From Pseudomonas saliphila (GTDB taxonomy: Bacteria > Pseudomonadota > Gammaproteobacteria > Pseudomonadales > Pseudomonadaceae): a stretch of 64,000 bases of DNA. Shown piece after piece: positions 104 to 22,900 of the stretch. The position numbers and the translations under genes were made by a program. The notes below the pieces were generated by a model. It saw nothing but the letters and a program-made list of their open reading frames with translations. It ran no database searches and was not told the DNA's origin. Location: contig NZ_VTVA01000016.1 in the NCBI RefSeq assembly GCF_008638345.1, forward strand, positions 1-64,000, read 5' to 3'. Positions within the stretch are counted from its first letter, which is position 1. The number at the start of each line of letters is the position of its first letter.

Positions 104-697
104 GTGCCAGACGAACACTCGCCACTTCTTGTGGTTGATCTTGAAGCAACCTGCTGGGAGTCAGCAACGCCAGAGGGTGAGCCGCAGAGCATCCACAACA
201 TGGAAATTATCGAGATTGGCTGCGTGCTGACCAATCGACTTGGCGCTGTTCTTGATTCGCGCTCTTTCATTGTCCGGCCTGTACGCCAACCGATCCTCAG
301 CGTGTTCTGCACCGAATTAACCAATATTACCCAAGCCATGGTTGATAGCGCCCCGACGCTACCAAATGCCATCGCGCAAATGGATACATGGTTGGACGAC
401 ACCGGACCAGACTTACTCTGGTGCAGTTGGGGCAACTACGACCTGAATCACCTTAAAGCTCAGTGCACCCTCGATAACGCCGATTCCAGGCTGCTGCACC
501 TTTCGCACCTCAATTTAAAAAAGCTCTGGCGACTCACAACAAAGCAGCGCAAGAAAACCAGCCTTGCCAGCGCCCTTGCTTACCACGGACTGACGTTTGA
601 CGGTCAGCCACACCGGGGCATAGATGATGCTAGGAACATCGCACGGTTGCTGCCGTTTCTAAATTGGTCGCTGGCGGACGATCTGGATGAAAACTGA
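104..697 (+). CDS. DEDDh-family 3'-5' exonuclease
   Basis: A 197-residue protein of the DnaQ/ERI1-like (KapD-like) DEDDh exonuclease superfamily, predicted to remove nucleotides from 3' ends of RNA or DNA with two metal ions. Visible motifs are Exo I near residues 11-16 (VDLEATCW, with the D-x-E pair), Exo II near residue 110 (WGNYDLNHLK) and Exo III near residues 168-180 (HRGIDDARN, giving the catalytic H and D). The start is GTG at 104 with an AAGGG purine tract just upstream. It overlaps the next gene by 11 bases and is the first gene of a three-gene cassette of end-processing hydrolases. Its substrate (RNA or DNA) cannot be told from sequence. Family assignment is firm; the role in this cassette is inferred. 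Confidence 0.85.
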   Translation: MPDEHSPLLVVDLEATCWESATPEGEPQSIHNMEIIEIGCVLTNRLGAVLDSRSFIVRPVRQPILSVFCTELTNITQAMVDSAPTLPNAIAQMDTWLDDTGPDLLWCSWGNYDLNHLKAQCTLDNADSRLLHLSHLNLKKLWRLTTKQRKKTSLASALAYHGLTFDGQPHRGIDDARNIARLLPFLNWSLADDLDEN

Positions 698-1202
698 GAT
701 ACTCATTTTTCTCGACTATGACGGGGTCCTGCACCCGGATGCCGTATACCGCCGTTTGAATGGGCACATTGAGCTAAGAGCTCCGGGCGAGCTGTTCATG
801 TGGGCGCCGGTACTTATTGAAGCTCTGGCCCCGTATCCCGACTTGAGCATTGTCCTGTCCACCAGCTGGGTACGAGAATTGGGGTTTCGTCGAGCATTAG
901 CCTTTTTGCCTGCTCACCTCGCGGAAAGGGTTATTGGTGGCACCTGGCATTCAGCGATGAGCACAACCACCGATGGCATCATTGAGTGGGATCAGCAATC
1001 TCGTTACGACCAGATTTCTGCGCACCTCAACCGGCAAACCGTTGCTATGCCCTGGCTGGCTATCGATGATGACGCTGTCGGATGGCCCTCTGGCCAACAT
1101 CAAAGCCTTGTGCATACAGATCCGATGCTTGGGCTTTCATCAACTGAAACCCAGCTACGGCTGCAGGAGAAGTTGAGGGCTCTTAATGTGAGAAACCCAT
1201 GA
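687..1202 (+). CDS. HAD-like phosphatase domain protein
   Basis: A 171-residue single-domain HAD-superfamily hydrolase. Motif I is near residues 9-13 (DYDGV: nucleophile aspartate and general acid two residues later). Motif II is the LSTSW segment near residue 57. The acidic motif IV is AIDDDAVGW near residue 125. No cap domain or signal peptide is seen, so it should act in the cytoplasm on phosphomonoesters, possibly nucleic-acid or nucleotide ends given its partners. The ATG lies inside the end of the exonuclease gene, and its TGA overlaps the next ATG (ATGA). This indicates translational coupling of all three genes. The exact substrate is unknown. Confidence 0.75.
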   Translation: MKTEILIFLDYDGVLHPDAVYRRLNGHIELRAPGELFMWAPVLIEALAPYPDLSIVLSTSWVRELGFRRALAFLPAHLAERVIGGTWHSAMSTTTDGIIEWDQQSRYDQISAHLNRQTVAMPWLAIDDDAVGWPSGQHQSLVHTDPMLGLSSTETQLRLQEKLRALNVRNP

Positions 1203-1858
1203 AGCTAGTATGCATATCCGACACCCATAGCATGCACAGCAGCATCCGGGACATTCCAGATGGCGATGTCCTTATTCACGCAGGAGACAGTCTTGGCCAA
1301 GGCACACTGGACGATGTTCATGAGCTAAATGATTGGCTGGGCACACTGCCTCACAAGCACAAGATCGTCATTGCCGGCAACCATGACTGGGCCTTTCAAG
1401 ACAGCCCAGAGCTGGTCCGCGACGCACTCAGCAACGCGATTTACCTGGAAGATAGCGGTGTTGAGATTGAGGGCGTGAGGTTTTGGGGTTCGCCCTGGAC
1501 ACCCGTCTTTTGGAATTGGGCCTTTATGCTGGACCGGGGGCAACCGCTTTATGATGCCTGGGCACTCATCCCTGACGACACTGATGTTCTTATTACCCAT
1601 GGGCCACCACAGGGTATTGGCGATGAAGTCGAGCTGGGACTTGGGTTTAGAAATGTAGGATGTCTTGACCTTCTGGAGCGGATTGACCGTCTTTCCTTAA
1701 AAGCTCATATATTTGGACATATTCATGAAGGTTACGGCGTTTACCAGCGGGGAGCGCTAAGCCTGGTCAATGCGAGTACCTGTAATGAGCGATACGAGCC
1801 AAATAATCCACCGATAGTGTTGGAGCTCGAGCTTGGTGAAAAGCCATCGCCTGTCTGA
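1199..1858 (+). CDS. Calcineurin-like metallophosphoesterase (MPPED-like)
   Basis: A 219-residue cytoplasmic metallophosphoesterase with a complete set of dimetal motifs: ISDTH at the N terminus, HAGD near residue 28, AGNHDW near residue 59, THGPP near residue 134 and FGHIHEGYG near residue 172. Its closest recognisable relatives are MPPED/ylcX-type phosphodiesterases acting on cyclic nucleotides or nucleic-acid ends. It starts at the ATGA overlap with the HAD gene and closes the three-gene cassette. A 14-base perfect palindrome follows at 1887-1900. Combined with an exonuclease and a phosphatase, a nucleic-acid or nucleotide end-processing pathway is plausible, but that is inference. Confidence 0.85.
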   Translation: MKLVCISDTHSMHSSIRDIPDGDVLIHAGDSLGQGTLDDVHELNDWLGTLPHKHKIVIAGNHDWAFQDSPELVRDALSNAIYLEDSGVEIEGVRFWGSPWTPVFWNWAFMLDRGQPLYDAWALIPDDTDVLITHGPPQGIGDEVELGLGFRNVGCLDLLERIDRLSLKAHIFGHIHEGYGVYQRGALSLVNASTCNERYEPNNPPIVLELELGEKPSPV

Positions 1859-3555: not shown

Positions 3556-3737
3556 TGACAACTCCCACTCAGGTTATTGATACAAACAAGATAGGCGATT
3601 TTCTGGCAGCACTCTATCTCATGTGTTGCACTTGGTCCCTGAGACCGCCCTGCAGAATCACATGCAATTAGTGCACAATGCAGCTATGGATAACACTCGC
3701 AGAAATCACAACGCCACACATGGAAGGCAAGGCTAAG

Positions 3738-5000
3738 GTGACCACTACTCCCCGCTCATTGGTCCATTCACTTTATACACACTGGGACGCCGTGGAGATC
3801 CTGATGCGGCTATCACGCGAATTTGCCGTGCTGACCAGCGATCAGGTATTGAACAGCATCGCCAGGGTGTCTGCACAAGCTGATGTTGAAGCGCAGGGTG
3901 CTGTGCTGCGTGCGCTGGTCAACGCCAATATTTTGCAAACTCTACCGCGCAGTAGTGATCTTCAGCTAAACGCCTATGTGTTGGAGTTCGTGCGGGGCCT
4001 CACCCGCGAGCACGAACTCGGTCTGGCTGCTGTGCTGCAGGCACGAGTCATCGCCATCCGCGAGGCCACCGAGGTACTCAACGAGGGGATGGCGGAAGCA
4101 GACATGGACCGCGTGCGCTCCGCCGCCAACAAGCTCGCTGAACTCTTTCGCCAGATCAGCCTGCAGCTTGATCAGGACCGACACGCACTCCTTGAGCTGA
4201 CCGAAAACGCCAAAAGCGCCGATAGCAGTATGCCGATCAGCCAGCGCTACCGCCGTGTACTGGAAGCCTATGATCAGTATGTGGAACCAATGAACCAGAT
4301 GATGGACACCGGCCCGCAGGGCACCTTCTATCATTACCTGGAGGACGCGGAGCACGCCCTCGATTTGGGGCTGGAAAGGCTCTCGGTACAAGGCGTGCTT
4401 TATTCGCATCGCCTGCAATTGCGTCAGGTAGCACATCAAGCCAAAGAGCTGCGGCGCTTTGGTCGACTGGTCGCACAACAGTGTGCCGACACTCTGCTGC
4501 CCTTGCGCGAAGAGCTACGTCAACACAATGTGCTGAGTAGCGCGATCAGTCTGCTGCTGGGCCAGGTTCGCAAGCGTGGGCTGCGGCGTGCTCTGTCTCG
4601 CCATACCGACAATACGGCACTCCCCGTCTGGCGCAACGAGCGCGGCTTTAAGCTGCAGCTAGGCGACGAAGTGCGCATGGTCATGGCTGCCGCACGAGCC
4701 TACCAACCGCAGGCCGTGGCTTTTCCACAGGACGAGCCCGGTGAGGCCATGCAGTTGCTGGAGCACGTCGACGAAGCTGCTATTCGTGCACACCTGGCCC
4801 GAAGCCTGCCGGTGGAAGACCTGCTCGACTGGCTGAACAGCCATTACGCTGACCTACAGGATGCCACCCTGCTGCGTCTGTTCCATGACCTGCAACACGA
4901 ACCAGACTGGCAGTTCGAGCCGGCAGCGCACCCCGTAAAAACCCGTCTACAGACAATCCGTGTGTTGCACCACCCCCACCGTGTGAGTACGCCAGAATGA
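3738..5000 (+). CDS. jetA: Wadjet JetA (kleisin-like subunit, MksF-type)
   Basis: A subunit of about 420 residues, all-helical and rich in winged-helix-like and coiled segments, matching JetA/MksF kleisins in size and in its N terminus (TTTPRSLVHSLYTHWDAVE). The kleisin bridges the heads of the SMC-like JetC dimer in the anti-plasmid complex. I place the start at GTG 3738, preceded by GGAAGG. ATGs at 3678 and 3720 are in frame but lack a ribosome-binding site. The stop overlaps the jetB start (ATGA at 4997). Gene order and coupling are those of a canonical Wadjet operon, which lends further weight to a fairly divergent sequence. Confidence 0.85.
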   Translation: MTTTPRSLVHSLYTHWDAVEILMRLSREFAVLTSDQVLNSIARVSAQADVEAQGAVLRALVNANILQTLPRSSDLQLNAYVLEFVRGLTREHELGLAAVLQARVIAIREATEVLNEGMAEADMDRVRSAANKLAELFRQISLQLDQDRHALLELTENAKSADSSMPISQRYRRVLEAYDQYVEPMNQMMDTGPQGTFYHYLEDAEHALDLGLERLSVQGVLYSHRLQLRQVAHQAKELRRFGRLVAQQCADTLLPLREELRQHNVLSSAISLLLGQVRKRGLRRALSRHTDNTALPVWRNERGFKLQLGDEVRMVMAAARAYQPQAVAFPQDEPGEAMQLLEHVDEAAIRAHLARSLPVEDLLDWLNSHYADLQDATLLRLFHDLQHEPDWQFEPAAHPVKTRLQTIRVLHHPHRVSTPE

Positions 5001-5611
5001 CAATTTCTCACCCTTTGACAGCCACACTGTCGCAGATGCCGGCATTGGCGGAGCTATTTCGATTGTTTCTTTCCGGCAAGCACCTGAACCGGCTGGCAGA
5101 GCCTGCGCTGTGGGCTGAACTGGAACAACAAGAAGACAGCTATACCGCCTTGTTTGTCGCGCTGGGGTTTGACCTGCGTTTGGATGCCAGAGGTTTTGCC
5201 TGGTTCCACAGCGGAGAAGCCAACAGCAACATTGGCAAAGCCAGCCGCCAGCTGGCCTTGCTTTTCATGGTGATCTTCGACGCCCAGTCCAATGCAGGCA
5301 AAGCCCTGCAACGCTTTACTGACTGGCTGATCGACAGCGACTGGCTGAGCGAAGTCTACAAGCAACAGCAAGAGCTGCTGGACGCTGAGGGCCTGCACCC
5401 TGATGCTCTTCAAGATCTGTTGGTTCGCGCCTGCAACCTGGGCTTCGCCGTGGCCGAGCCAAACGGCTGGCGACTGCTGCCTGCGGTGTGCCGCTACCTT
5501 GACCACTTCGAAGGCCTGGCACTGACCGCCAAGGACGACAGCGATGAGGCAAGCCCGGTTGCTGACGAGGATACTGCCCTTGAGATAACGGACGACGGGG
5601 AGAAGGACTGA
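4997..5611 (+). CDS. jetB: Wadjet JetB (MksE-like KITE subunit)
   Basis: A 204-residue protein in the position and size range of JetB/MksE, the KITE-type tandem winged-helix subunit that binds the kleisin and contacts DNA. The region of residues 20-115 is compatible with two winged helices; the C-terminal 30 residues are acidic and low in complexity. Both junctions are coupled: its ATG overlaps the jetA stop, and its TGA shares a base with the jetC ATG. Identification relies largely on context, as is usual for this fast-evolving subunit. Confidence 0.85.
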   Translation: MTISHPLTATLSQMPALAELFRLFLSGKHLNRLAEPALWAELEQQEDSYTALFVALGFDLRLDARGFAWFHSGEANSNIGKASRQLALLFMVIFDAQSNAGKALQRFTDWLIDSDWLSEVYKQQQELLDAEGLHPDALQDLLVRACNLGFAVAEPNGWRLLPAVCRYLDHFEGLALTAKDDSDEASPVADEDTALEITDDGEKD

Positions 5612-8364
5612 TGCAGTACGGCTTCCAACGCCTTGTCTTGCTGGGCAGTGCCGGGTACTCGCGCGCCGAGTTGCCACTGGATGGCGCTGTCTCACTGGTC
5701 GCCCCCAACAACACCGGCAAGACCAGCCTGATCAATGCCCTGCAGTTCTTGCTGATTATCGACCGGCGCCGCATGGACTTTGGTGCGCACGATGTGGAGA
5801 AGAGCCGGCGTTTCTATTTCCCCAACAACAGCGCCTATGTGCTCCTGGAAGTCACCCTGCCGGAGTCCGGAACAGTGGTACTCGGCTGCGTAGGCAAAGG
5901 GGTCAGCTTCGACTACGAATACTTTGCCTATGCCGGCCCGCTCAAGACCGAACAGTTCTGTCTGCCGGATGGCACACTGGTTGCGCAGCCTCAACTAGCC
6001 AGCCATCTGGGCAGCCACGGACGCAGGGTATTCAGCTACAGCGGAAGCGAATTCGCCGACATGGTGTACGGGGGACGCAGCCGCAAACTCACTAGCCAGC
6101 AGGACTTTTGCGTGTTCAGACTCGAGCACGCAAACGACGCCAGCGTTTTTCAGCGCGTGCTCACCCGTACACTAAGGCTGGACAAATTGCGCTCCAGCGA
6201 AGTGAAGGACTACCTCCTGCAGATATTCCGCCGTGACTTGCCAGATGCCAGCATCGATTTCAAGGCTGAGTGGGACAAGGCGTTCGCCGACCTCAACGCC
6301 GAGCGCAGCCAGTACCAAGCCGCCGTGCGCCAGCAATCCTCCTTGAGCGAACTGGAAGAGCGACAGGATGCCCGAAAGATACTGCGCGGCAAGTTGCTGT
6401 GCTGGCGTCCGCTGATTGATGCGGCGCTGGGGCAGTGGCAGCAGCATTATGAAACCCGCCGGCACACACTGCAGCATGAGCTGGTACAGTGCGATGAAGC
6501 GCTGCAGCAGTTGCGCAAGCAAGATATTCAGTCAGCAGTAGAGCAGACCCAATGCCAGCAGGAACAGGCCCAGCTGGGCCAGCAATGTGAACAATTGCAC
6601 GAACTGCAGCAACGTTTTGCCCTGATTCCCGAGCTCAGCACGCTTGAGTCGCGCCGCCGCGAACTCCAGGAACAGCGCGATGCGCTAATGGGACGTATCA
6701 GTCAGGTACAGAAACGCTCACCAGTAGCCATTGAGCGCGAGTTGGCTCGACTGGATACGGAGCTGGCCCAACTGGTCCAGGAGATACGTACCCAGGGACA
6801 GAATCTGTATCAGCAACTGGCCAGCCTGATCCCGGCAGAACAACTTGATGGACTTACCAGGCTACTGGCTAAACCGGTGCTGACCCTAGGCGCAGCGGAT
6901 TACCAGCTCGATAGCCATGCACTGGCAGTGGCGCTGGCAGGCACCGATACCGGGCAGCTCAACTTGTCCGGCCTGCGCCTGCGGCTGGAAGCCCTGCCAA
7001 CGCAGTATCAACAACGCACCTTGGAAGAACTTGACGAGCTACAACAGGACTTACAGCAGCAACAGGCTCTGCTTCGAGAGCAACTGACGACTGTCCGGGA
7101 ACTGGAAAGCGTCAAACAGCAATGCCATGCACTGGACCGAGAACTGGCAGAGCTGGATAGTGAACTACGCTATTACACACACATGCAGGACTTGCAACAC
7201 AGCAGAGCCGCGCGCCAGGATCGGCTTGAATCCCTGACGCACAGGCTCGTCGAACTCTCTGCCAGCCTGGCGCAGTCGGCAGACAGGCACCGGGCGCTGG
7301 ATCAGCAGCGTCAACAGCGAAAGCAGGATCTAGATGTCTTGCAGCAACAGCACCGGCAGATCGAACAGCGCCGCAACCAACGCATTGATCACGAAGGTTC
7401 CTTTATCTGGCTGGCCGACCTACCGCACCAGCCGTGGTTGGCACAACCCGAGTTCCCGCTGGAACAGCTGACTGAGCGCCTGAAGACCTATCTGGAGGAC
7501 TGCCGCCAGTTGCTGGATCTGGATGGACAAATTCGCCAACTGCTGGGTGAAATCCATACCGGCGGACTGACCAAATATCAATTTGTTGGCGATCAGGAGA
7601 GTGAAATCGCCCGCCTGATTGAATTTGCCCATCACTTGCCGCAAGAAGCCGAAGCCTTGGAAAAGAAAGTGCGTTCGGCGGTAGTAAACGTAGCTGCCTG
7701 CCTGCGCGAGCTGCGCGACGGGCTGCTTGCATTCAAGAGGCGCATGCGCGAGTTCAACCGCAAGATCAGCGGGCGCCAACTGTCCGATCTGGAGGTGTTT
7801 AAGATCGAACCGGAAGACGAAACCACCCTGGTCGAAGCCATCGAGTTACTGATCAATACCGCGGCCACCGTGAACAATGGAGATACCTTCGAGCTGTTCA
7901 ACCAGCAGAGTGTGCTCGACGATGACCAGCTAAACCGTGCCAAGGCCCTGCTGATCGAGGAGGGCAACGCACGTCACGGCTTGCGGGTGGCTGATCTGTT
8001 CCGCCTGCGTTTCTGGGTCGGCAAGGCGGATCGTGAGCCTGAAGGCTTTGATGACCTCGACAGTGCCGCCTCCAACGGCACCGTGCTGATGGCCAAGCTG
8101 GTGACCGGTCTGGCAATGCTGCACCTGATGCAAGATCAGCGCCGGCCCATTCAAGGCATCTGTTACCTGGACGAGGCGCTGGCTCTGGATGCCCGCAACC
8201 AGCGCAGCCTGATCGACACGGCTGCGGAGTTCGGTTTTTCGTTGATCTTTGCCTCCCCCGCGCCGCTGACCACAGTGCGCTATTGCGTCCCGATCCACCA
8301 GCGTAATGGAAGCAACCAGATCAGCCGCTTCAGTTGGCAGATCATCGAACCAGTGGAAGCCTGA
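5611..8364 (+). CDS. jetC: Wadjet JetC (SMC-like ATPase, MksB-type)
   Basis: A 917-residue SMC-like ATPase. The N-terminal head has Walker A APNNTGKTS near residues 30-38. Long glutamine- and leucine-rich coiled-coil arms lie at roughly residues 220-420 and 460-620, with a hinge-like section between. The C-terminal head carries a signature-like segment near residue 825 and Walker B YLDEALALD near residue 850. Its length is in the range of MksB-type condensins rather than full-length SMC. With JetA, JetB and JetD it should form the loop-extruding machine that recognises and cleaves small circular DNA. Coupled start with jetB; the stop is two bases before the jetD start. Confidence 0.9.
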   Translation: MQYGFQRLVLLGSAGYSRAELPLDGAVSLVAPNNTGKTSLINALQFLLIIDRRRMDFGAHDVEKSRRFYFPNNSAYVLLEVTLPESGTVVLGCVGKGVSFDYEYFAYAGPLKTEQFCLPDGTLVAQPQLASHLGSHGRRVFSYSGSEFADMVYGGRSRKLTSQQDFCVFRLEHANDASVFQRVLTRTLRLDKLRSSEVKDYLLQIFRRDLPDASIDFKAEWDKAFADLNAERSQYQAAVRQQSSLSELEERQDARKILRGKLLCWRPLIDAALGQWQQHYETRRHTLQHELVQCDEALQQLRKQDIQSAVEQTQCQQEQAQLGQQCEQLHELQQRFALIPELSTLESRRRELQEQRDALMGRISQVQKRSPVAIERELARLDTELAQLVQEIRTQGQNLYQQLASLIPAEQLDGLTRLLAKPVLTLGAADYQLDSHALAVALAGTDTGQLNLSGLRLRLEALPTQYQQRTLEELDELQQDLQQQQALLREQLTTVRELESVKQQCHALDRELAELDSELRYYTHMQDLQHSRAARQDRLESLTHRLVELSASLAQSADRHRALDQQRQQRKQDLDVLQQQHRQIEQRRNQRIDHEGSFIWLADLPHQPWLAQPEFPLEQLTERLKTYLEDCRQLLDLDGQIRQLLGEIHTGGLTKYQFVGDQESEIARLIEFAHHLPQEAEALEKKVRSAVVNVAACLRELRDGLLAFKRRMREFNRKISGRQLSDLEVFKIEPEDETTLVEAIELLINTAATVNNGDTFELFNQQSVLDDDQLNRAKALLIEEGNARHGLRVADLFRLRFWVGKADREPEGFDDLDSAASNGTVLMAKLVTGLAMLHLMQDQRRPIQGICYLDEALALDARNQRSLIDTAAEFGFSLIFASPAPLTTVRYCVPIHQRNGSNQISRFSWQIIEPVEA

Positions 8365-8366
8365 GC

Positions 8367-9227
8367 ATGGATAGCACTCTGCGCGCCGCCTTGCTCAAGC
8401 TGCACGGCCAGTCAACACTGCCCGCCAGCCAGTTCACCCCCGCTCAACGCAGCGCCCTTGATGGCTTTGCCCGGCAAACCGGCGCGGTGACTTGCCAACG
8501 GCAGGGGCGCGGCGATGTGTACCGCGTCAGCGATTCGCAACTGTTTAACATCCACCTAGCCGGACTCTCCCCCCAGGTCGAGATGCCAAACACTGAAAGT
8601 TTACCGCTTCGCGCGCAACACATCGCTCATGCGCGAAACAGCAAGGCACGCAATCACCAGCATGACAGCTACTACCCCCAGCTGAAGGCAGTCGGTGACC
8701 GAGTGTTCTGGCATCAGGACGAAAACGGCAACCAGCTCCCGCTCAGCCAGCTCACCCAGAATTACGGCGCAGCCAGCTTGCGACTACAGGCCGAGGACAG
8801 CTGGCAAACCTCACAGCCGCTCTGGCTGGTGGAAAACCAGGCGCTGTTCGATCGTACCGATTGGCTGCCGGCAGATACCCAAGCGACCTTGTTGTACTAC
8901 GGCGGACAGCTGGATGGCCGACTCCTAGCCTGGCTGGCGAGGCAACCACGCGCCAGCCGCGTGATACTGTTCCCGGACTATGACGGTGTCGGGCTGGCCA
9001 ATGTTGCGCGGCTTGTCGCGCTGCTCGGTGAAGCCTGCGAATGCTGGTTGATGCCTGACTGGCAAACCAGGCTGGAACGCTACGGCAGCCACAGGCTATG
9101 GCAGGACACCTACCGCGAGTTCAACAGTGTCGTATCACAATTACCGGATTACCTGAGCCCCTTAACAGATCGCATGTGCCAGACGGGTTTGGCACTGGAG
9201 CAGGAAGCCGTGTGGCTACCGGTTTGA
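8367..9227 (+). CDS. jetD: Wadjet JetD (TOPRIM nuclease, DUF2220-type)
   Basis: A nuclease subunit of about 286 residues with a C-terminal TOPRIM domain. The conserved glutamate is in LVENQALF near residue 157, and the D-x-D-x-G element FPDYDGVGLANV lies near residues 199-210. JetD cuts plasmid DNA captured by the JetABC complex. The start at 8367 has a GGAAG site and follows the jetC stop by two bases. JetD proteins are often nearer 380 residues, so this one has a short N-terminal region. All catalytic motifs I can check are present, so the system looks intact. Confidence 0.88.
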   Translation: MDSTLRAALLKLHGQSTLPASQFTPAQRSALDGFARQTGAVTCQRQGRGDVYRVSDSQLFNIHLAGLSPQVEMPNTESLPLRAQHIAHARNSKARNHQHDSYYPQLKAVGDRVFWHQDENGNQLPLSQLTQNYGAASLRLQAEDSWQTSQPLWLVENQALFDRTDWLPADTQATLLYYGGQLDGRLLAWLARQPRASRVILFPDYDGVGLANVARLVALLGEACECWLMPDWQTRLERYGSHRLWQDTYREFNSVVSQLPDYLSPLTDRMCQTGLALEQEAVWLPV

Positions 9228-9520: not shown

Positions 9521-12500
9521 CTACGGTTTTCCAACTCTACTTCCGGCGACCATTATCGCAAGCATGTGAAAGACGTAGTTCAGCAGCTGCGAGGAAAACT
9601 GCTTTATGTGCTTCCTTTTACCAATGATTTCTTTTTCGTTGATATGCCTTAATCTCAGATATGCCTGAACCGAGCTGCCCTGGGAGACCTCTTGCATTTG
9701 GTAGCTTATGCCTAGCGAACGCCAGGTATCCAGCTCTTCAATGGAAACCTTTGGAGCTACTAAAATATTCAAGCCCCAGCGTCCTTTAGGTATGACCCGT
9801 TCAAGTGAATTTACAAATTTTGCTGCATCTTCAAAGTGGGTAAACCGTGTACCTGGCTTCGCTTGGCTCGTGTTATTTTTCCAATATTCTATACACCACC
9901 TAATTCCTATACTGTCTTCGCCGTATGCGTCCCGAAGAAGCGAGATCACCTTATCAGTCTCAGCCGCGGTCGCTCTATCTTGAGGTCTTATCGGCGCCAA
10001 GGGGATTCCGATGGCCTTTGGGGCCACATCCTTGGGGAAGTGTCGACTGTTTCCGGCCTTTGTAGTTAAGCTTTGTATTTCCTTAGCAGCCTCACGCCAT
10101 CCAAGTATTTTGTTTTTATCAATGGCATAACGCACAGAAAGCGTAAGGACAGGGTCACCATCCTCCAGATCACGAAGTACAGCGTGGCAATCACGAACTG
10201 TTGGCTTCGGTCTCAAAGGCGTGTAGGGAGCTTCTTCAGTCGCAACAGTGCTTAACGTTTTTGTCTTAAAGGTCCGAGACATCGGCGCAAGCCGTTTTAA
10301 AATCTCGGGCCGCATAGCTGAAAGCCTGACTGTTTCGTCATTAGCAATGAAATACGGATTTATGGCCTTAGACGAAAGACCACTTAGACGAGAAATTTGC
10401 TCTTTGTCCAGCACTGGATCGAATTTAGCAAGCTGCTGCCAGAAGAGCAGGCTTGTCTCATGAACGTAGTACAAAAATGTTGTATCAGGCACCAGGTGCC
10501 CAGCAAGCCCGACTATCGCACTGTACTTGTCTCGACTACTCATCGGATTTGAGCAGAACAACTCAGAGCGTATTTTTTTGGCCTGCTCAACACTGTATCC
10601 GGTCAGCGTTACAATTAAGTCCGGATTCTCCTCCATCACGACAAATATGTTTGTCAAAGTACTGTGTCTGAAGTGATGGAATGACAGCTCATCCAGGCCC
10701 TGGAAGCTTAGAAGGTCCTTGGTGAGGCCTGAAACGATGCTGCCTCTATAAGGTACACTCACTGCATGCGGTTCTGAAAAAAGCAGTGTGTTTATGTGGT
10801 TCTTGTTTTGAGCAAGACGGTGGTTTAAATACTGACGAAACCGTTCTAGCTCGTTAGGCAGCAGCAGTAAGTAAACGGGAATTCTTCGACGTGCCGAGTC
10901 GGTTTTATTGTTCCCGTAGCGATTATTTACCACATAGAACCAGTACTCATCAGACTTTTCGATGTCTGACAGTCTCAGCTTGAGCAGCTCCCCTCGCCGC
11001 AGGCCGGTGCGGTATGCCAGGATCAGGAGCACAGCAAGACCTTCCTTTGTGTCTAGGTCAACGCCCGTCAGGTTTCGCACGCCTCGAATCATGGCTTGGT
11101 AGTTGTGCTCCGGGATGTACCCTGTCCTGACCTGTGGCTGTAACTGTGTATCGCCCGCGCACTCAAAAAAGCCGGTTAACTCGGGTAGTCCGTAATGATC
11201 CGACTGGGTTGCGAATCGATGTAAATCCCGCAAGCGAGCTTGGAGATAATTCAGGGACTTGATTTTCTCCCCAGGCTTGAAGGTAAGTATCTGCCGATAG
11301 ACCTGTTCGAGCTCGCTTTCATCCATATCATCGATGTCAGCTTCGTTTGTATGAAACAGCCAAAGACTTCCCAACTCGGAAAAGTAACGCGAAGCCGAAG
11401 ACACCTTGATTTTGCGTGTGACAAGACAGTCGAGGAGCCAGTCGACCAGAAGGGCAGCGTTCAACGTGAGCGCTTGGCCACCTATTTCCTGCAGCCGCGC
11501 TATGGCACGAGCTGGCGTATTTTTTATTCCGGAAATCTCGGTATGCAAAGCAGCACTAATTTGCTTTATAAGAGCGTCTACTGATCTCTTTTCCCCGGAA
11601 TCTGAGTAGCTGTTTTGGGCTCCGTGGTTTAGAGAGGTTTTTGGCTGGCCACTTTTCCAGGCGATCTGCGCGCCGCTTAGGGAAAATGCCTTTGGTGTGG
11701 CGTCGTCAAGAGTTTTCAGAAGCCACTTCTGTAACAATTTCGACGGTAGCGACACTGAACCAACACGACCCGCTGCGCACTCTAGCAATGCTTGCGGCAA
11801 CTCAACATCAGGTAATGTTTCTGTAACCGCTTGAGCACCTTGGCAGAAGGCGCTGAGACTAGTGATCGAATTTTTTTGAGTGCTGCCTGCCAGCCTCTTC
11901 CTCAGAATCTCCCAGACGTCAGATTGATTACGCTCTCCAGATTCTCTTAGGTCGGTGTATTTCTTTATGTGCTGAAACTGAACGAGCTGTCCGAGTGTTC
12001 TATTGTCTGGATAAAACCTATTGAGTGATTGCCATTTTGTGCCGCTTTCGTCAGAAGCCTTTTCATTCAGGGGGTCTTTATCACCAATTAAGATCAAATC
12101 TATCCAAGCAAACGCACCGTTGTCCCCGGCAATTTGTAATGGCTTAGGCTCACTAACGAGCACATTGGCGAGGCTGGTGACTGCTCGGGGATTTGCCAAG
12201 CCTCCATAAAAAACTGCTGAAATAAGTACATCGGCCAGCCTGGTTTCTGGATCTGATGAATGCTTTTCGATAGCCAACTGGTGCAGCCAACTCTGGTACA
12301 GCTTGCCGGCCCTGATGCCTGCCTTGAAATTGGTATGACTTCGGCTAGTGGTCGTCCTCGAAACACTGACAATAATTGCCGGGATGTCCAGTTGCCATAA
12401 ACCTTGCTCATTGCCTTTCGCTACGAAATCAGCCAGAAACTCGTAAGCGATCTTAAGCCTTTTAATATCAGGGTATTCCGTCCTGAGAAAGCGTTGAAAG

Positions 12501-12670
12501 TTTTGTACTTGAGCGCCAAACTCCTCAGGATCAAGGGGACATCCCGATAGTGCAGGCAGGTGAGTAGCTATCAAGCCGGGCATAGCGTCATGCACCTGCG
12601 CTTTAGCATTCGAGTAATTTATGTCATTTCTTTTTGCCCGCAAAGCCGAGCCATACAGAGGCCTACTCAT
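9521..12670 (-). CDS. Giant tyrosine recombinase with C-terminal extension
   Basis: About 1049 residues. The catalytic domain of a phage-integrase-type tyrosine recombinase lies in the centre: first arginine in AYRTGLRRGELLKL near residue 555, HHFRHS near residue 665, GLAGH near residue 720 and the nucleophile in FLYYVH near residue 735. Ordinary integrases of this class are 300-450 residues and end soon after the tyrosine. This protein has about 550 residues before the catalytic domain and over 300 after it. The ATG at 12670 overlaps the stop of the upstream recombinase (ATGAGTAG). It is the last gene of a three-gene module beside the island's attachment site, so it most likely catalyses island integration or excision. 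Confidence 0.85.
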   Translation of the reverse strand: MSRPLYGSALRAKRNDINYSNAKAQVHDAMPGLIATHLPALSGCPLDPEEFGAQVQNFQRFLRTEYPDIKRLKIAYEFLADFVAKGNEQGLWQLDIPAIIVSVSRTTTSRSHTNFKAGIRAGKLYQSWLHQLAIEKHSSDPETRLADVLISAVFYGGLANPRAVTSLANVLVSEPKPLQIAGDNGAFAWIDLILIGDKDPLNEKASDESGTKWQSLNRFYPDNRTLGQLVQFQHIKKYTDLRESGERNQSDVWEILRKRLAGSTQKNSITSLSAFCQGAQAVTETLPDVELPQALLECAAGRVGSVSLPSKLLQKWLLKTLDDATPKAFSLSGAQIAWKSGQPKTSLNHGAQNSYSDSGEKRSVDALIKQISAALHTEISGIKNTPARAIARLQEIGGQALTLNAALLVDWLLDCLVTRKIKVSSASRYFSELGSLWLFHTNEADIDDMDESELEQVYRQILTFKPGEKIKSLNYLQARLRDLHRFATQSDHYGLPELTGFFECAGDTQLQPQVRTGYIPEHNYQAMIRGVRNLTGVDLDTKEGLAVLLILAYRTGLRRGELLKLRLSDIEKSDEYWFYVVNNRYGNNKTDSARRRIPVYLLLLPNELERFRQYLNHRLAQNKNHINTLLFSEPHAVSVPYRGSIVSGLTKDLLSFQGLDELSFHHFRHSTLTNIFVVMEENPDLIVTLTGYSVEQAKKIRSELFCSNPMSSRDKYSAIVGLAGHLVPDTTFLYYVHETSLLFWQQLAKFDPVLDKEQISRLSGLSSKAINPYFIANDETVRLSAMRPEILKRLAPMSRTFKTKTLSTVATEEAPYTPLRPKPTVRDCHAVLRDLEDGDPVLTLSVRYAIDKNKILGWREAAKEIQSLTTKAGNSRHFPKDVAPKAIGIPLAPIRPQDRATAAETDKVISLLRDAYGEDSIGIRWCIEYWKNNTSQAKPGTRFTHFEDAAKFVNSLERVIPKGRWGLNILVAPKVSIEELDTWRSLGISYQMQEVSQGSSVQAYLRLRHINEKEIIGKRKHIKQFSSQLLNYVFHMLAIMVAGSRVGKP

Positions 12671-14957
12671 GAGCACGGCCTTGGTCGGTAAGAGGGATGA
12701 TTCCCAACCTACTAAAAAGCTGCTCTATCACCAGAGCAATCGTCTCCAGCGCCTTAATGCTCATTCCGCTATATCGGGTTAGTCCTTCCTGTCCTGGCTT
12801 CGCATGACCCATCCAGGTATCGATTGATTCTCCAGTAACCTCTTTTTGCCTTAGCAGGTAGCTGCGTAAAAAATGACGGTGCCAGTTCGATGGCAGACCT
12901 AAAGTACCCGCCCAGAGATCTTCAACACTTTTAGGGGAGACAGAAACTATGCTGAATTCGTCAGCCATGTCACCCTGCTGTACGAAGAAGAACAGTCGGC
13001 CTTTCCCATTGAGTGCGTCTCCGAGCTGTTTACCAAATGTCGGGGATAAGCTCTGCATCTGGATATGCAGTCTTTCCAGGTGTTTGTTGTAGAGCTTGAT
13101 TTGGGTTACGGCGGTGTCTGGCAGTACGAGGGTCCGCGCAGAGCTGGAGGTCAGTCGCGATTCCTTATCTGAAATGAAGATTTTTTTACTTATCAGGTCG
13201 ATGTGGTCGATGTCATCAAAGGGATCTATAACGGGGCGATGACCAGTAGCAATATTCAGAAGATGGATTGTGTACATCACGTACCGGTTGTGTACTTCGA
13301 TCCAGCTTCGGTCTTTTAATCGCTGAAGGCTTTTCTGTAGGTGGTCAAAAATTGCGACAACTGCTTCTTCCTTGACCACCAACTGCGAGCCGCCAAGCTC
13401 GGCTTTACTCTCATCTGGATCTGGAGTTTCAGTCCTCAGCTCGGTTTTCAGGTATCTTTGATAAGCCCTATAGATGGAAACGGTGTCATATTGGGTGTAA
13501 TAAAGCCCTGCCTCCTGGATGTCAGGGCTTCCAATAATCAGGGCGATCAGAACATCATCTACTCCCTGACGATGTAGGTAATTCGCCAGGTGATCAGCAA
13601 TTTTGCTGACCGACAACTTGGTAGAGTTCGCTTTATTGATCCTTTTGAGAAGCTCCTCAGCTTGAAGCTCCAGCTCTTTGCCATCAGGAAGGGAACGAAC
13701 CACCTTCGCGGCGCAGGGCACTGGCATCACCACGGCAGCTTTTTGCTGATCCAGCAGTCGCTGTTGCTTTTCGGGTAGCCGATGCGGTGGTAGTTCGTAG
13801 CGGTATAGCCAGTAGATACTGCCTGACTGTCCTAAACGGTATGCATCGCCGGTTTCATGAAAATCACCAGTTCGAGCTACCTGCCTAGCCTGTAGAAGCT
13901 TTTCGGGCTTACGACCTGTCGCCAGTACCAGATACAGCATGTACGAAACATCGCAGAATTCCATCCGGCTTGCGAGCTCCGACAGCAGTATCCCCACTTC
14001 GTATTTGGTTAGTCTGTTAGTCAGGCAAACCAGTCTCTTCTCGCGCCTTTCAACGACGCCGGCTACGACCTTCGCGTGCATAGCACTCAGGGCATACGAT
14101 CTCCGCAAACTGGCTGGGGCAGTTTTTTCAGCCTGTGCTGCCAGAAAAACACCCGGGGTTTGGTGGTCCGCACGGTACTCTGAGGTCTCTTGTGTTACGT
14201 CCGATAGGGTCGTCTGCAGCGACAATTCGATATAACCTGGTGTTTCGTCTGTCTCAAGCGCATATCGCGTGCTGACTGATTGAGAGACTGTATATATCAG
14301 AGAACCACCGCTTCTTTGACCGCCGACCGAGAAAGTGCCCTCATCTTCAGAAGCGTTGCGTCGTGTACGTTTGTTCTTAAGATTTCTCGAAACGACATCT
14401 TCCAGTATTCGCCGCACTGGCATCAGCCGCTGCTGGGCGTAGCTTTTATGTGAGGCGGCCAGGCTGCCCAAGATCAAATCAATGCTTCCTAACAGGCTCT
14501 CCAAGGTGCGGCTTGCAATAGGCAGCAGCTTTTCAACCTCGAGGCTATTCAGACGTTTACTAGTTTTTGCACGATCCTCGACGAGTAGACGATACGCAGA
14601 CATTGCTCGCAGCGTCCTTCCCAAATCTCCAAATGCCTTTTGGTGTTCAAGGGCGGCTAATAGGACGAAGGACTGCAAATTTTGTAGTGATGCTGACGGA
14701 GGAGGTGTACACAAAAAAGCCTCGGCTTGCGCCTCCGTGATTTGCTTCTTCTCCCGCAGCTGTCCAAGAAAGTTTTTTAAATGCTCCTCACAAGGATCAT
14801 CATGTGGGGAGGCACTGGCATACTGCTGTGCGAGGTCCTTTAAATCATGACCATATTCAGAATCCAGCACGCATCCAGATAGAATTTCGTTCGCCCGTCG
14901 CACGAGGACATTAGTAGTGTGTGCGTCATGCTCCAGCCTCATCAGTATTTGAATCAC
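12663..14957 (-). CDS. Second large tyrosine recombinase-like protein
   Basis: A protein of about 764 residues whose C-terminal 200 residues hold a tyrosine-recombinase catalytic set: R in ATGHRPVIDP, H-x-x-R in WHRHFLRS, MGHAKPGQ, and the tyrosine in TRYSGM close to the C terminus. The N-terminal 450 residues are not recognisable. The GTG at 14957 gives a short gap after the upstream gene; an ATG at 14942 and a GTG at 15062 (90-base overlap) are alternatives. It overlaps the next gene by eight bases. Two recombinases of unequal length from one transcript suggest a heteromeric integrase, as in other multi-recombinase elements. That is inferred from layout. Confidence 0.82.
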   Translation of the reverse strand: MIQILMRLEHDAHTTNVLVRRANEILSGCVLDSEYGHDLKDLAQQYASASPHDDPCEEHLKNFLGQLREKKQITEAQAEAFLCTPPPSASLQNLQSFVLLAALEHQKAFGDLGRTLRAMSAYRLLVEDRAKTSKRLNSLEVEKLLPIASRTLESLLGSIDLILGSLAASHKSYAQQRLMPVRRILEDVVSRNLKNKRTRRNASEDEGTFSVGGQRSGGSLIYTVSQSVSTRYALETDETPGYIELSLQTTLSDVTQETSEYRADHQTPGVFLAAQAEKTAPASLRRSYALSAMHAKVVAGVVERREKRLVCLTNRLTKYEVGILLSELASRMEFCDVSYMLYLVLATGRKPEKLLQARQVARTGDFHETGDAYRLGQSGSIYWLYRYELPPHRLPEKQQRLLDQQKAAVVMPVPCAAKVVRSLPDGKELELQAEELLKRINKANSTKLSVSKIADHLANYLHRQGVDDVLIALIIGSPDIQEAGLYYTQYDTVSIYRAYQRYLKTELRTETPDPDESKAELGGSQLVVKEEAVVAIFDHLQKSLQRLKDRSWIEVHNRYVMYTIHLLNIATGHRPVIDPFDDIDHIDLISKKIFISDKESRLTSSSARTLVLPDTAVTQIKLYNKHLERLHIQMQSLSPTFGKQLGDALNGKGRLFFFVQQGDMADEFSIVSVSPKSVEDLWAGTLGLPSNWHRHFLRSYLLRQKEVTGESIDTWMGHAKPGQEGLTRYSGMSIKALETIALVIEQLFSRLGIIPLTDQGRAHE

Positions 14958-14971
14958 TGCTGCTCTCGCGT

Positions 14972-15544
14972 TTAATTCAGTATTTGTTCTAACAGGCTTG
15001 GTTCTAACTGGGTGTCTGCTGGGTTGGCGATTCTCTGTGCGGCAGCTCGTGATATACCACACAGACGCTCAAGCGCTGTAGCCGGTGTACGTGGTCTGTC
15101 ACCGGAGAAAATTCTTGGCCATAGCACTTTTTGGGTGCTCAGCAGTTGGTAGGCCTCTGTTCTGTAGCGCTCATTACTGCCCGCGGCGCTCAGCACTCCC
15201 AGCTCAGCCATTACTGCCCACGCCTCCATATTTGGCGGGGATTCTTCATGAACGACCGCGCAGATCTTTTTGACGCCGCGTCGGCGCAGTTCATGAAACA
15301 GGCGCCACCCAGCAAAAAACAGATATCTCGCCGGCTGTGACTTTTCCTGCACGTCATGCTCGGGCTTTGGCTTTTCCTGCACAACATGCGCGGGCTGTGA
15401 TCGTTGCAAGACCTCCAACATTTCATCACTGAATCGCGCGAGATGTTGCGGGTCCTCGAACGCCAGGGATGCATTCACCAACTCCGCTATTACGGGGTGG
15501 GGCACAAGGTTGCTGAGCTGCAGGTCTCTGTACGACGTCATCAT
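14972..15544 (-). CDS. Small ParB-like accessory protein of the recombinase module
   Basis: A 190-residue protein, first gene of the recombinase operon. The segment YLFFAGWRLFHELRRRGVKKICAVVHEE (shown only in part by its key AGWRLFHELRR) resembles the ParB N-domain pattern: strand, G-x-R-R-like helix, then a strand ending in I/V-x-A-V-V. It is preceded by a LVPHPVIAEL start like the ParB opening. An internal tandem repeat (VQEKPKPEHD / VQEKSQPARY, around residues 55-75) interrupts it. A helix-turn-helix-like GISRAAAQRIAN lies near the C terminus. It probably helps target or regulate the two recombinases. The ParB relation is from pattern alone. Confidence 0.6.
   Translation of the reverse strand: MMTSYRDLQLSNLVPHPVIAELVNASLAFEDPQHLARFSDEMLEVLQRSQPAHVVQEKPKPEHDVQEKSQPARYLFFAGWRLFHELRRRGVKKICAVVHEESPPNMEAWAVMAELGVLSAAGSNERYRTEAYQLLSTQKVLWPRIFSGDRPRTPATALERLCGISRAAAQRIANPADTQLEPSLLEQILN
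15309..15402. repeat. Short tandem repeat inside the ParB-like gene
   Basis: The stretch contains CGGGCTnTGnCTTTTCCTGC-like units repeated about 30 bases apart, with a third partial GCGGGCTGTGA unit. In protein it gives a duplicated VQEK-x-x-P motif. It probably reflects slippage and may vary between related elements. Confidence 0.5.
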
Positions 15545-15861
15545 GTTTTCCTAAAGGCTCCAGGGGTTGGTTCTTGGGCTCGCGCTCTCTAGCACCTGTA
15601 TCGGGTGCCGGCAGGAGTTCGCGACCATCACCGACGAGGCAGGAGGTTAATCTGTAACCCGGCATTTTAGGCAATACTCATAATTATTGTATTTTTGAGC
15701 GTTTTTTATCTGCATCCTGTGCCCGATATTCTCGTTGACCTAAAGATACAGGCATTAATTTACGCTAATTGATTTAAATTACAAAGCAGAGAAACCTTCT
15801 GAAAGTCTTGACATACGCGGTTTACATGAGATTATACGGATTAAGACCTATCAAAACATTT
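15545..15861. other. AT-rich island end, upstream of the recombinase operon
   Basis: No gene is supported here. The first 120 bases contain a GCACC/GGTGC inverted repeat near 15590-15606. Bases 15670-15860 are strongly AT-rich. This is the expected site for the recombinase operon promoter and for recombinase arm sites next to the attachment core. Confidence 0.4.
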
Positions 15862-15862
15862 A

Positions 15863-15919
15863 GGCGGTACTGCCCTCCGAAGGCAGGGGTCACTGGTTCG
15901 AATCCAGTCGGGTGCGCCA
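15863..15919 (+). other. tRNA-Arg(CCG) 3' fragment: attachment site (attR-like)
   Basis: The sequence holds a tRNA 3' part: an anticodon stem CTGCC/GGCAG enclosing CTCCGAA (anticodon CCG, arginine), a variable region, a complete T-arm with GGTTCGAATCC, the acceptor 3' strand CGGGTGC, the discriminator G and an encoded CCA at 15917-15919. The matching 5' acceptor strand (GCACCCG expected) and the D-arm are absent upstream, so it is not a functional tRNA. Displaced 3' tRNA ends are the standard product of integrase-mediated insertion into tRNA genes. Its orientation puts the island on the left and the original tRNA flank on the right. Confidence 0.85.
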
Positions 15920-16110
15920 TTTTTTGTATTTCAATAGCTTGCGCCACCCTCGCTCAGCAATTCTCGCTGGCTTCCTTCGGTCTCGCACATCTCCCGTCTG
16001 TACCGTGTCAAAGCCGCTGCAGCTTTGATCACAAACGGTGCAACCCACCTATCTTCTTGAATTTCCCCCTGAGCCATTCGCTTCAAACGTCACACACCGC
16101 CCCCAATTGG
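15920..16110. other. Gap between attachment site and efflux genes
   Basis: About 190 bases that would be the original downstream flank of the tRNA gene. No coding region or clear terminator is visible apart from the short T-run that directly follows the tRNA fragment. Confidence 0.35.
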
Positions 16111-19952: not shown

Positions 19953-22900
19953 TCATGCTATCGCCAGTTTTGCAGCTTGCTGCCACATGAAACTCGGCAT
20001 TGGCATGCGGAGTGCCCAGGTGATGCTCATGGGCTGCGAACCGCTGTCCGACACATAATAAACCTCGCCGTAGTTCACATAGCCAATAGCACGACCAAAC
20101 TGATCTTTGGCTTGCTCCCTCACAAACAGGAAGATCCGCTTACCGATAGAGCGATGGTTGATGTATTCCGTCCCGCGCCCGCGGTCCGGTCGGGCGCTGT
20201 TTTGTGATTGCCAATGAAATAAATTCTCATTGATGGCGTAGTCTTGATACATCGTTGTCGGGGAAAATTGCTTCTCGTTTTTATCTAATGTCACGAACAG
20301 GAGTTCCGTTTTCGGTCCAGGGACCACGAATACTCCCTCCATCGATAGCGGCTGGTGATCGAAGCGTGTCGCACCAAACCCCACCAGAATTTGCTCTCGG
20401 GAATAGCGCGCATGCAGACGCAGTGGGACCTCCTGCAAGTCTGGGATAGTGGGCTGCGCATGCTTGGTCTGGGCCAACTTCCACTCGAGCACGTCAACCA
20501 ATTCCCGATGAAGTCCCAACTTGTTGAGCTCCGCCATGCTCTGAGAAAGCGACTCAAACTCCAGCTCCGGCCCTGCTTTTTGCCAGAAATCGTAATGGCA
20601 CATAAGCGCTCGACGATTGTCCACCTGCGCCCAAACAAAGCCTGCCTGGCACAGTTTCTTCAGGAACAGCAGATACTCATGGTCATCACAAACCAGAATC
20701 CGATTGTAGATGGCCTTCCTCACCATTTTGAACAACGAGTCATCAACGCCTGCCTCATTTTTGGCTTTGCTAACCAGCTCCGACCAACTGGCGCGCCTAT
20801 AGAGCTCATTGAGGTCAATGTGCGGATGCTGTACTAGAAAATTTCTTAGGGTCAGTGGCTGTGTTGAATGTTGCGGAAACTGGCGGACCAGCGATACGAG
20901 CCGTTTCATTGTGAGGGTCGCCAGCCGTATGTTCCTCAGCACCATTTCCTGAGTTTTCCGGGTGAGCTCGATGCGGCAACCTAGCGGCGCATGGGGGAAG
21001 CCTTGTTTCAGCTCCTCTGCAATTGATCGTTCTGACTTGCCGACCAGTGCTCTGAACTTGCTCGTGAAGTCGTACTCCGGTCGTGAGTTACCCACAAAAT
21101 CCAACACGGTGCAGCAATCCTTGACATCTGAAAGGCGAAGACCCCGACCAAGTTGCTGCAAGAAAATGGTTAAGCTCTCCGTTGGGCGCAAGAACAACAA
21201 AGTATCCACCTCTGGAATATCGATACCTTCGTTAAAGATATCGACCACACACAGGACGTTTATCTGCCCTGAGCGAATGGCTTGCTGCTTCTGCTGCCGC
21301 TCATGACTGTTATCACTGGTCAGTACATCAGCATTGATACCGTGCAGTAGGAACTGCTGCGCCATGAAGTTCGCGTGGTCACGGCTCACACAGAAAGCCA
21401 AGGCCTTCATGCTTCCTATATCAGTGACGATTTCCAGTAAGGTACGCACTATTTTTTTTACGCGACTGTGGTTGTGCGTATACAAGTTTGTCAGCTGAGC
21501 GATATCGTAACGGCCGCGGCTCCATGGAATGGTGCGCAGATCTGTGTCGTCATCAATCCCGAAGTACTGAAATGGGCTAAGGTGACGACGGTTGATTGCT
21601 TCGGGCAATCTGAGCTCAGCCGCGATGACGCCGCCGAAGTCACTGAGAATATCCCCACCATCATGCCGTTCTGGCGTTGCCGTCAGGCCCAGCAGTATCG
21701 AAGGGGAGAAATGTTCAAGTACCGCTTGGTAGCTTGAGGCTGCGATGTGATGCACCTCATCGATCACAATGTAATCGTAATAGCCCGGTGTCAGATTTAG
21801 CTGGTTCAGCTGATTGTTTAGAGTCTGGATAGACACAAATAACTGGCGGTAATGATCAGGCAGCTGCCCGCCAACCCAGAGCTCGCCGAAGGCATTGTTT
21901 CTCAGTACGCCTCGATACGCTTCGCGAGCCTGCTTCAGTATCTCTTCTCTATGCGCGACAAATAGAAAATTGGCGTCAGGTTTCGCCTTCAGAAACTGGT
22001 GAAAATCAAACGCGGAGATAAGCGTTTTGCCGGTGCCCGTGGCGGCTACTACGAGGTTCCGAAAACGATCGTGGACATCTCTCTCAACACAGAGCTGCTC
22101 CAGGATTTCCTTTTAATGGGGGAAGGGTGTGATATCAAAAAAATGCGACGTTCCGGTATCTCCCCAGCCCTTCTGCTGTTTCAGAGCTCGCTTGAGTTTC
22201 TCAACGCTTTGAGCCTGACCGTCAAACCGCTCAAATTCGTCTGACGCCCAGTACGTTTCAAAGGTGCTGAGTGACTTCTTGATGATGTGTGGAATTTCCT
22301 GAGAAGTGATCTTCAGGTTCCATTCAAGGCCGTTGGTCAAAGCTGAACGTGAGAGATTTGATGATCCGATATAGCCAGTATGAAAACCCGAATCCCGAAG
22401 GAATAAATAGCTTTTGGCATGCAGCCGCTCCCGCTCAGTGTTGTAGCTCAGCTTCACTTCGGTGTTCGGCAGACTGGCCAGATACTCAACGGCCTTGGCA
22501 TCCGTCGCGCCCATATAGGATGTGGTGATGATTTTGAGCTCGCGACCACTGGCGGCAAACAATTCGAGTTCTTTGCGGAAAATACGGATACCAGCCCATT
22601 TTATAAAAGACACCAGCCAGTAAATTTTGTCTGCGGAAAGAATTTCACGCTTTAGCTCAGACTCCAGTGACAGGCCAGCATTGCTACCTGAAAACAACTC
22701 GCTCTGAGTGAGCCCTGTGAGAGGAAAAATCTCTTCGACGTACTGTTTGAGGTTGGCTGCAACAGGGTTTTCGAGCTCGTATAGAGCAGTGAGAATCCTT
22801 CCCTGGCTATCAAGAAGATTGTCTTCTAAAAATCCGTTGTCCTGAATCTGTCCTTTCAGCCACATCAGTAATTGGTTGGATAAATCAATCTGCTCTTGCA

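Follow-up and report, generated by a model that had tools for sequence, protein, structure and literature searches.

What moves the candidate defence genes that lie beside a truncated tRNA in Pseudomonas saliphila? The 64,000-nucleotide stretch of DNA analysed here (the window, which begins at the first base of contig NZ_VTVA01000016.1, contig C8 of the source genome G000) carries three overlapping genes, which we call A, B and C, next to a 3' fragment of tRNA-Arg(CCG). A preliminary description made from the sequence alone had taken B and C for large tyrosine recombinases and A for a ParB-like protein, and had proposed the trio as the probable mover of a defence island. We conclude that the trio probably serves as the recombination module of an integrative genomic island; the target of this island would be the anticodon stem-loop of a tRNA gene, here tRNA-Arg(CCG), and its cargo would be defence genes. 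We reach this reading because the gene order, the recombinase residues, and the fixed side and orientation of the module relative to tRNA 3' fragments are conserved, and because tRNA identity follows phylogeny in the window's clade and both island ends can be seen in one relative. A role as a module for tRNA-targeted, often defence-bearing islands is well supported by anatomy and comparison.

The three open reading frames (ORFs) are present as first described and all are open; with the start codons inspected, they are transcribed in the order A, B, C on the minus strand over 9521-15544 (Table 1). Residues of B are numbered on its 799-aa ORF throughout. The window's B and C retain every residue that is invariant in their families.

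Table 1. Features of the window that bear on the proposed island module and its cargo
Feature	Coordinates	Strand	Remarks
Gene A	14972..15544	-	190 aa; ParB fold, with N-terminal ParB/Srx-like domain and C-terminal helices; first in module
Gene B	12663..15062	-	Longest ORF 799 aa; likely start GTG at 14957, giving 764 aa
B domain D1 (residues ~346-544)	13431..14027	-	First recombinase fold; Tyr522 invariant
B domain D2 (residues ~559-788)	12699..13388	-	Second recombinase fold; R609, K633, R729 and H753 invariant
Gene C	9521..12676	-	1051/1049 aa; tyrosine recombinase with R560, K591, H667, R670, H727 and Y737
tRNA-Arg(CCG) 3' fragment	15867..15919	+	53 nt (nt 25-77, anticodon stem to CCA); module-side attachment-site scar
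Putative module-side core site	15857..15889	+	CATTTAGGCGGTACTGCC, then 7-nt anticodon loop CTCCGAA, then 3' stem strand
Internal site	15663..15681	+	CATTTTAGGCAATACTCAT; 119 bp ahead of gene A; contains far-end-like half-site GGCAATACTCA
Cargo candidate, three genes	104..1858	+	RNase_T exonuclease, HAD_SAK_2 protein, metallophosphoesterase (PADLOC PDC-S10)
Cargo candidate, four ORFs	3678..9227	+	MksE/condensin-like (Wadjet-like) cluster; ends 293 bp from C

Of 293 genomes from the same order, 21 contain relatives of B (E 1e-5), P. saliphila counted; so do 15 of 72,556 plasmid records, and 50,697 phage records gave no match. When 369 genomes from the class were scanned with a profile of C, 10 matched, again counting the source genome (1e-10; two candidates scored per genome). 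Scanning contigs with four C sequences yielded seven named loci (two in Aeromonas/Aeromonadaceae, two in Oceanimonas, two in Halopseudomonas and one in Vibrio), and a scan of genome contigs with B alone found nothing. The 45 loci carrying B that were compared, the window among them, are designated by L-numbers. Synteny elsewhere, on which the preliminary description had made its proposal depend, is evident, as the trio is conserved among these loci. In 34 of the 45, B and C are distinct genes lying side by side, and in nine they are fused into one chain of 1278-1916 aa (L038, L041, L042, L045, L048, L057, L058, L134 and L140). L036 and L043 gave no match to C with the window query, L036 being a remnant with IS21-like genes and L043 having a 1047-aa ORF in that place. 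At 36 unfused loci, B was checked for a directly adjoining small ORF of 130-450 aa, which is present in 32; L036, L052, L139 and L110 have none, L110 being cut by a contig end. The small proteins fall into two profile groups, only one of which groups with A of the window.

The nearest relative is the locus of Halopseudomonas sabulinigri (L116), which is 73% identical over 4763 bp, with protein identities of 58% for A, 62% for B and 68% for C. A second, diverged module is present in the source genome itself (L028; G000:C23:310000-316500), beside a tRNA-Asp 3' fragment, and is 89.6% identical over 6.4 kb to the module of the marine relative Halopseudomonas pelagia (L112). The block shared by L028 and L112 stops at the stop codon of C. 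We considered this stop as a module edge and dropped the idea, since genes that read as IS21-like come next in L028 and the coincidence may be an accident.

The side on which the tRNA lies is constant. Remnants were sought at the 45 loci, many spanning only a few kb, by a pattern of T-arm, acceptor and CCA. All 16 of the tRNA 3' fragments recovered lie upstream of the module and in the opposite orientation: 11 are within 1.1 kb of B, one is at 1.7 kb and four are at 3.2-6.5 kb, counts that are not independent, as L029/L111 and L113/L114 are near-identical pairs. Five intact tRNAs were found apart from the fragments, two downstream of the module and three upstream (one of these an unrelated tRNA-Trp, 7 kb away). 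Among the 29 loci without a fragment, L116 has an intact tRNA-Arg(CCG) in the corresponding position. In the tree of C, the window and L116, both with tRNA-Arg(CCG), form a clade with support 1.0, as do five loci with tRNA-Asp; L115, whose fragment reads as tRNA-Gly(TCC), pairs with the plasmid locus L030, which has no tRNA. Met fragments accompany two fused loci, L038 and L048, as well as the remnant L036. Within the window's own clade, tRNA identity is shown by this comparison to track the phylogeny of the module.

Both ends of an island can be examined in Aeromonas caviae (NZ_AP026896.1), where an intact tRNA-Asp (238464-238540), behind tRNA-Ile and tRNA-Ala, and a 49-nt 3' fragment of the same tRNA (284937-284985) enclose 46.4 kb. 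The fragment lies inside a 64-bp direct repeat (97%) and is bordered by the module. This arrangement of an intact tRNA at one end and its 3' fragment at the other is thus found in A. caviae; the window's contig shows the fragment end only. A. caviae and A. bivalvium have in common 9658 bp at 99%, beginning at the fragment, with no further match of at least 80 bp between these stretches; on this comparison, A. bivalvium carries the A. caviae block at another place. A 12-mer, GTGACCGTGACC, is present in one copy at each of the six module-side ends of the Asp clade, always starting 119 bp inside the fragment, and a further single copy lies 78 bp inward from the far end of the A. caviae island. 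It is absent from the window, L115, L116, L061 and L030, and among the 13 sequences scanned the only other copy is in L105, a sequence retrieved a second time; we take the 12-mer for a putative accessory-protein site. The record NZ_AP026896.1 is filed as a plasmid of 4.9 Mb, and is probably a chromosome given its tRNA-Ile, its tRNA-Ala and an apparent ribosomal RNA operon.

The tRNA-Arg(CCG) fragment of the window begins 323 bp from the start of gene A, and the putative core site that overlaps it contains GTACTGCC, which would pair with GGCAATAC of a far-end-like motif present twice on contig C57 of the source genome. At two far-end-like scars on that contig, what comes after the anticodon loop is the 11-mer of the internal site, GGCAATACTCA. 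A one-base variant of the internal site is found in L116, between the module-side end and gene A, and L116 also combines module-side end, loop and far-end-like motif in a single joint. In all five congeners examined, an intact tRNA-Arg(CCG) lies near what we take to be a rep-like helicase gene. At the same locus of the source genome, G000:C57:120055-120380 (L061 8056-8379; one N in the assembly), an intact tRNA-Arg(CCG) is preceded by repeated 5' tRNA halves, which suggests scars of repeated earlier insertion at one tRNA. The window's fragment and the ~150 nt that follow it (15867-16071) are 79% identical to this locus over 209 columns, and the DNA to the right of the scar may therefore be the end of an older element. 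We did not accept the window end and C57 as two parts of one island, as C57 continues for more than 100 kb.

Several observations weigh against an island moved by the trio. Excision, a circular form and an empty site were not observed, and movement is deduced from anatomy; as the window starts with its contig, the far end of its island lies off that contig, and the far-end-like scars on C57 may belong to other elements. The pattern search found no tRNA remnant, whole or partial, at 27 of the 45 loci, many of them covering few kb. The unfused L034 has a Met fragment too, at a distance of 4.3 kb, and a fragment read as Arg-like lies 5.3 kb from L033, in a distant clade, so that the correspondence between tRNA and clade is established for the window's clade alone. 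Finally, an arm-type tyrosine integrase (sought with phmmer, E 1e-4) is near the trio in 14 of the 45 loci plus one partial case (L029:13193-15234 is an example, and L112 has one too); the 14 include five of the six sufficiently covered Asp loci. In 13 of the 14 the enzyme is encoded downstream of C, and in 11 it is convergent with the trio; it has an HD/TraI_2-like protein beside it in several loci, and in A. caviae matches PF12167 and PF00589. If this conventional enzyme moves the islands, the trio would be either cargo that is conserved or another recombination system, unrelated to the first and situated near one end.

We consider that explanation improbable, because tRNA fragments lie at the trio in loci where no such integrase was detected. 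No homologue was detected in the 9.5 kb beyond C in the window, nor at L115 (~10 kb covered), L038 (4.3 kb) or L048 (5.9 kb and three further stretches of its genome), each with a tRNA fragment at the trio. Conversely, nine of the 14 integrase-bearing loci lack a tRNA fragment closer than 3 kb to the trio (L033 and L057 have one further off), and where a fragment is close it is bordered by the trio and not by the arm-type integrase. That enzyme could still share or own mobilization in the loci that have it, as a possible partner or competitor. The original suggestion that the trio is the mover is thus strengthened by the fixed tRNA side and by both integrated junctions in A. caviae, and is qualified by these 14 loci. 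It is very unlikely that the trio is instead a decayed passenger of a tRNA hotspot, non-functional in its source genome: the repeated 5' halves on C57 are suggestive of earlier insertions and rearrangement, and the second copy in the same genome is followed by IS21-like genes, yet the window's three frames are open and the family-invariant residues of B and C are in place.

C matches Pfam Phage_integrase (PF00589, 1.4e-9), and R560, K591, R670, H727 and Y737 are present in 30/30 unfused proteins (the 34 unfused pairs minus L110, L114, L135 and L137, which are redundant or partial) and in 9/9 fused ones. Position 667 is His in 25 and Tyr in five of the unfused proteins, and His in all nine fusions. 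By its conserved residues, C is a complete tyrosine recombinase with a catalytic R-K-H/Y-R-H-Y set. The catalytic domain is flanked by long extensions on both sides, consistent with the giant recombinase, extending far beyond its catalytic tyrosine, that had been described. Behind this domain, weak helix-turn-helix matches below the Pfam cut-off were found in L030 (E 0.0049) and L115 (E 0.0045), and none in the other three C proteins scanned or in C of the window. The N-terminal part of C (C_D1) may have a recombinase fold as well: with hhalign it gave 0.015 against C_D2 and 0.016 against D1 of B, but 0.5 against XerC and 0.6 against the arm-integrase profile. For A, the fold of a ParB N-domain was recovered, which bears out the ParB-like core reported for it. 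A full ParB is longer than 190 aa.

B is less conventional. Structure prediction and structural alignment give two tandem tyrosine-recombinase folds, so that the large regions previously said to have no visible assignment include one part that resembles a second recombinase fold. For D1 the assignment comes from structural alignment, in which the three matching rows are all entries of one protein, the SSV1 integrase; sequence profiles gave weak support (XerC 0.0064, B D2 0.011, arm-integrase 0.18). In D2 the R-K-R-H residues are kept in 39/39 sequences, and the nucleophile position, 764, is Tyr in just 14 of 39 (10/30 unfused, 4/9 fused); in the B protein of L112 it is Phe. No conserved nucleophilic tyrosine accompanies R-K-R-H within D2, and we therefore reject B as an ordinary recombinase. 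The sole invariant residue in the ~200 residues of D1 is Tyr522, near the nucleophile position of that fold and present in 37/37 proteins having the region. Position 765 is Ser in 38 of 39 sequences and Thr in the other, making Ser765 a second candidate for an unusual role.

Two accounts of B may be considered. Quite possibly, B is a non-catalytic recombinase-fold partner of C, which alone would cut, with a one-strand bias and copy-out in place of clean excision. Such a partner has a precedent in Tfp of the strand-biased circularizing integrative elements (SE), which, in the available part of the SE report, lacks RHRY, recombination of SE being strand-biased (PMC10214605). The loss of Tyr764 from most B proteins fits this account, but B differs from Tfp in keeping R-K-R-H and Tyr522, which would be unusual for a dead subunit, and the window's own B has Tyr764. 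A more tentative proposal, which we regard as rather unlikely, is a divided active site in which D1 gives the nucleophile Tyr522 and D2 the R-K-R-H pocket, with the D2 tyrosine freed from selection. If so, a synaptic complex of C, C, B and B would combine two ordinary active sites with two composite ones, and homology would give the fused chains, up to 1916 aa long, three recombinase folds or more. The B family provides naturally occurring cases of a conserved nucleophile and a conserved pocket on different domains, and the way in which multi-recombinase modules share four active sites, a long-standing question, thereby becomes testable by point mutation.

These assignments suggest how the module might act. 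C would cut with its own complete active site, B would be its partner, the two of them occupying the arms of the core site, and the 7-nt anticodon loop would be the crossover region. A, through its ParB fold, would bind repeats inside the element ends and set direction, and the half-site ahead of gene A could place the operon under regulation by the recombinase or by A.

The trio lacks defining features of four known types of module, RIT, GInt, SE and Gamma-Mobile-Trio (GMT). In RIT elements (ritA-ritB-ritC), as far as the accessible text describes them, each of the three proteins is a tyrosine recombinase with what may be a catalytic motif, and the element is ~3.5 kb (PMC3414803). The three genes here are likewise adjacent and overlapping, but the first protein is ParB-fold and not a tyrosine recombinase; membership is rejected for this reason, and the distinction drawn in the preliminary description holds. 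SE are likewise cargo-bearing elements of Gammaproteobacteria that carry a tyrosine-recombinase module of several genes at one end, with one recombinase-fold protein of abnormal active site and one small auxiliary protein. Unlike SE, for which the portion of the report available gives the core order intA-tfp-intB-srap, two RHRY recombinases and a 6-bp footprint (PMC10214605), the trio does not show the four-core-gene order: it has three genes in the order small-B-C, a B protein with two folds and intact R-K-R-H, and tRNA anticodon-loop targets. GInt islands also combine cargo, a recombinase operon at one end, terminal direct repeats and a small extra protein; in the accessible description, their ginABCD operon has four genes, three of them integrases, with small GinD last, whereas here two recombinase-type genes are joined by A.

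GMT (GmtY, GmtZ, GmtX) is, like the present trio, a three-gene module associated with defence islands. Membership was rejected on gene order, protein sizes and the absence of an NCBIfam match. The only locus above the GmtY cut-off has the order 441 (GmtY model), 908 and 200 aa, the latter two presumably GmtZ and GmtX from their position. No NCBIfam Gmt model matched the window proteins at E 0.1; the GmtY model NF040693 had two matches in the source genome, neither above cut-off (best 4.4e-5, contig C1), and NF040692 matched nothing anywhere and is hence uninformative. Aligning B, C and A to one GMT locus with hhalign gave 0.06-0.14 for GmtY and 0.07-0.92 for the other two, none significant in what is a weak, single-sequence comparison. 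One genome, G452, has a GMT locus (C9:115533) as well as two members of the A-B-C family (on its contigs C2 and C4). The Tn554 family (tnpA-tnpB-tnpC) is set apart by description, its small gene being last and not first. No description of this module was found in the literature searched, whose coverage leaves out most subscription journals. The trio would represent another type of tyrosine-recombinase module made of several genes, one with a ParB-fold partner, spreading defence genes through tRNA hotspots.

The cargo varies with the host. Ten proteins chosen by hand from four islands were scanned, of which three had no match. In the window, the Wadjet-like cluster matched PF21980 MksE (4.9e-34) and DUF7281 (1.6e-12), with weak matches to LmuB and JetC and none for its first ORF. 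Genes for RNase_T and PDC-S10 also follow the module of H. pelagia L112 (13631-14883), and are thus found in two hosts. The cargo of L112 includes ThsB, the RNase_T-type exonuclease and PDC-S10, that of Oceanimonas (L114) a type I specificity subunit together with an AAA protein of candidate systems, and that of the A. caviae island DndF and DndG. To the right of the window's scar, at 19953-21836, a protein resembling a type IV methyl-directed restriction enzyme is encoded (PADLOC mREase_IV, 1.6e-139).

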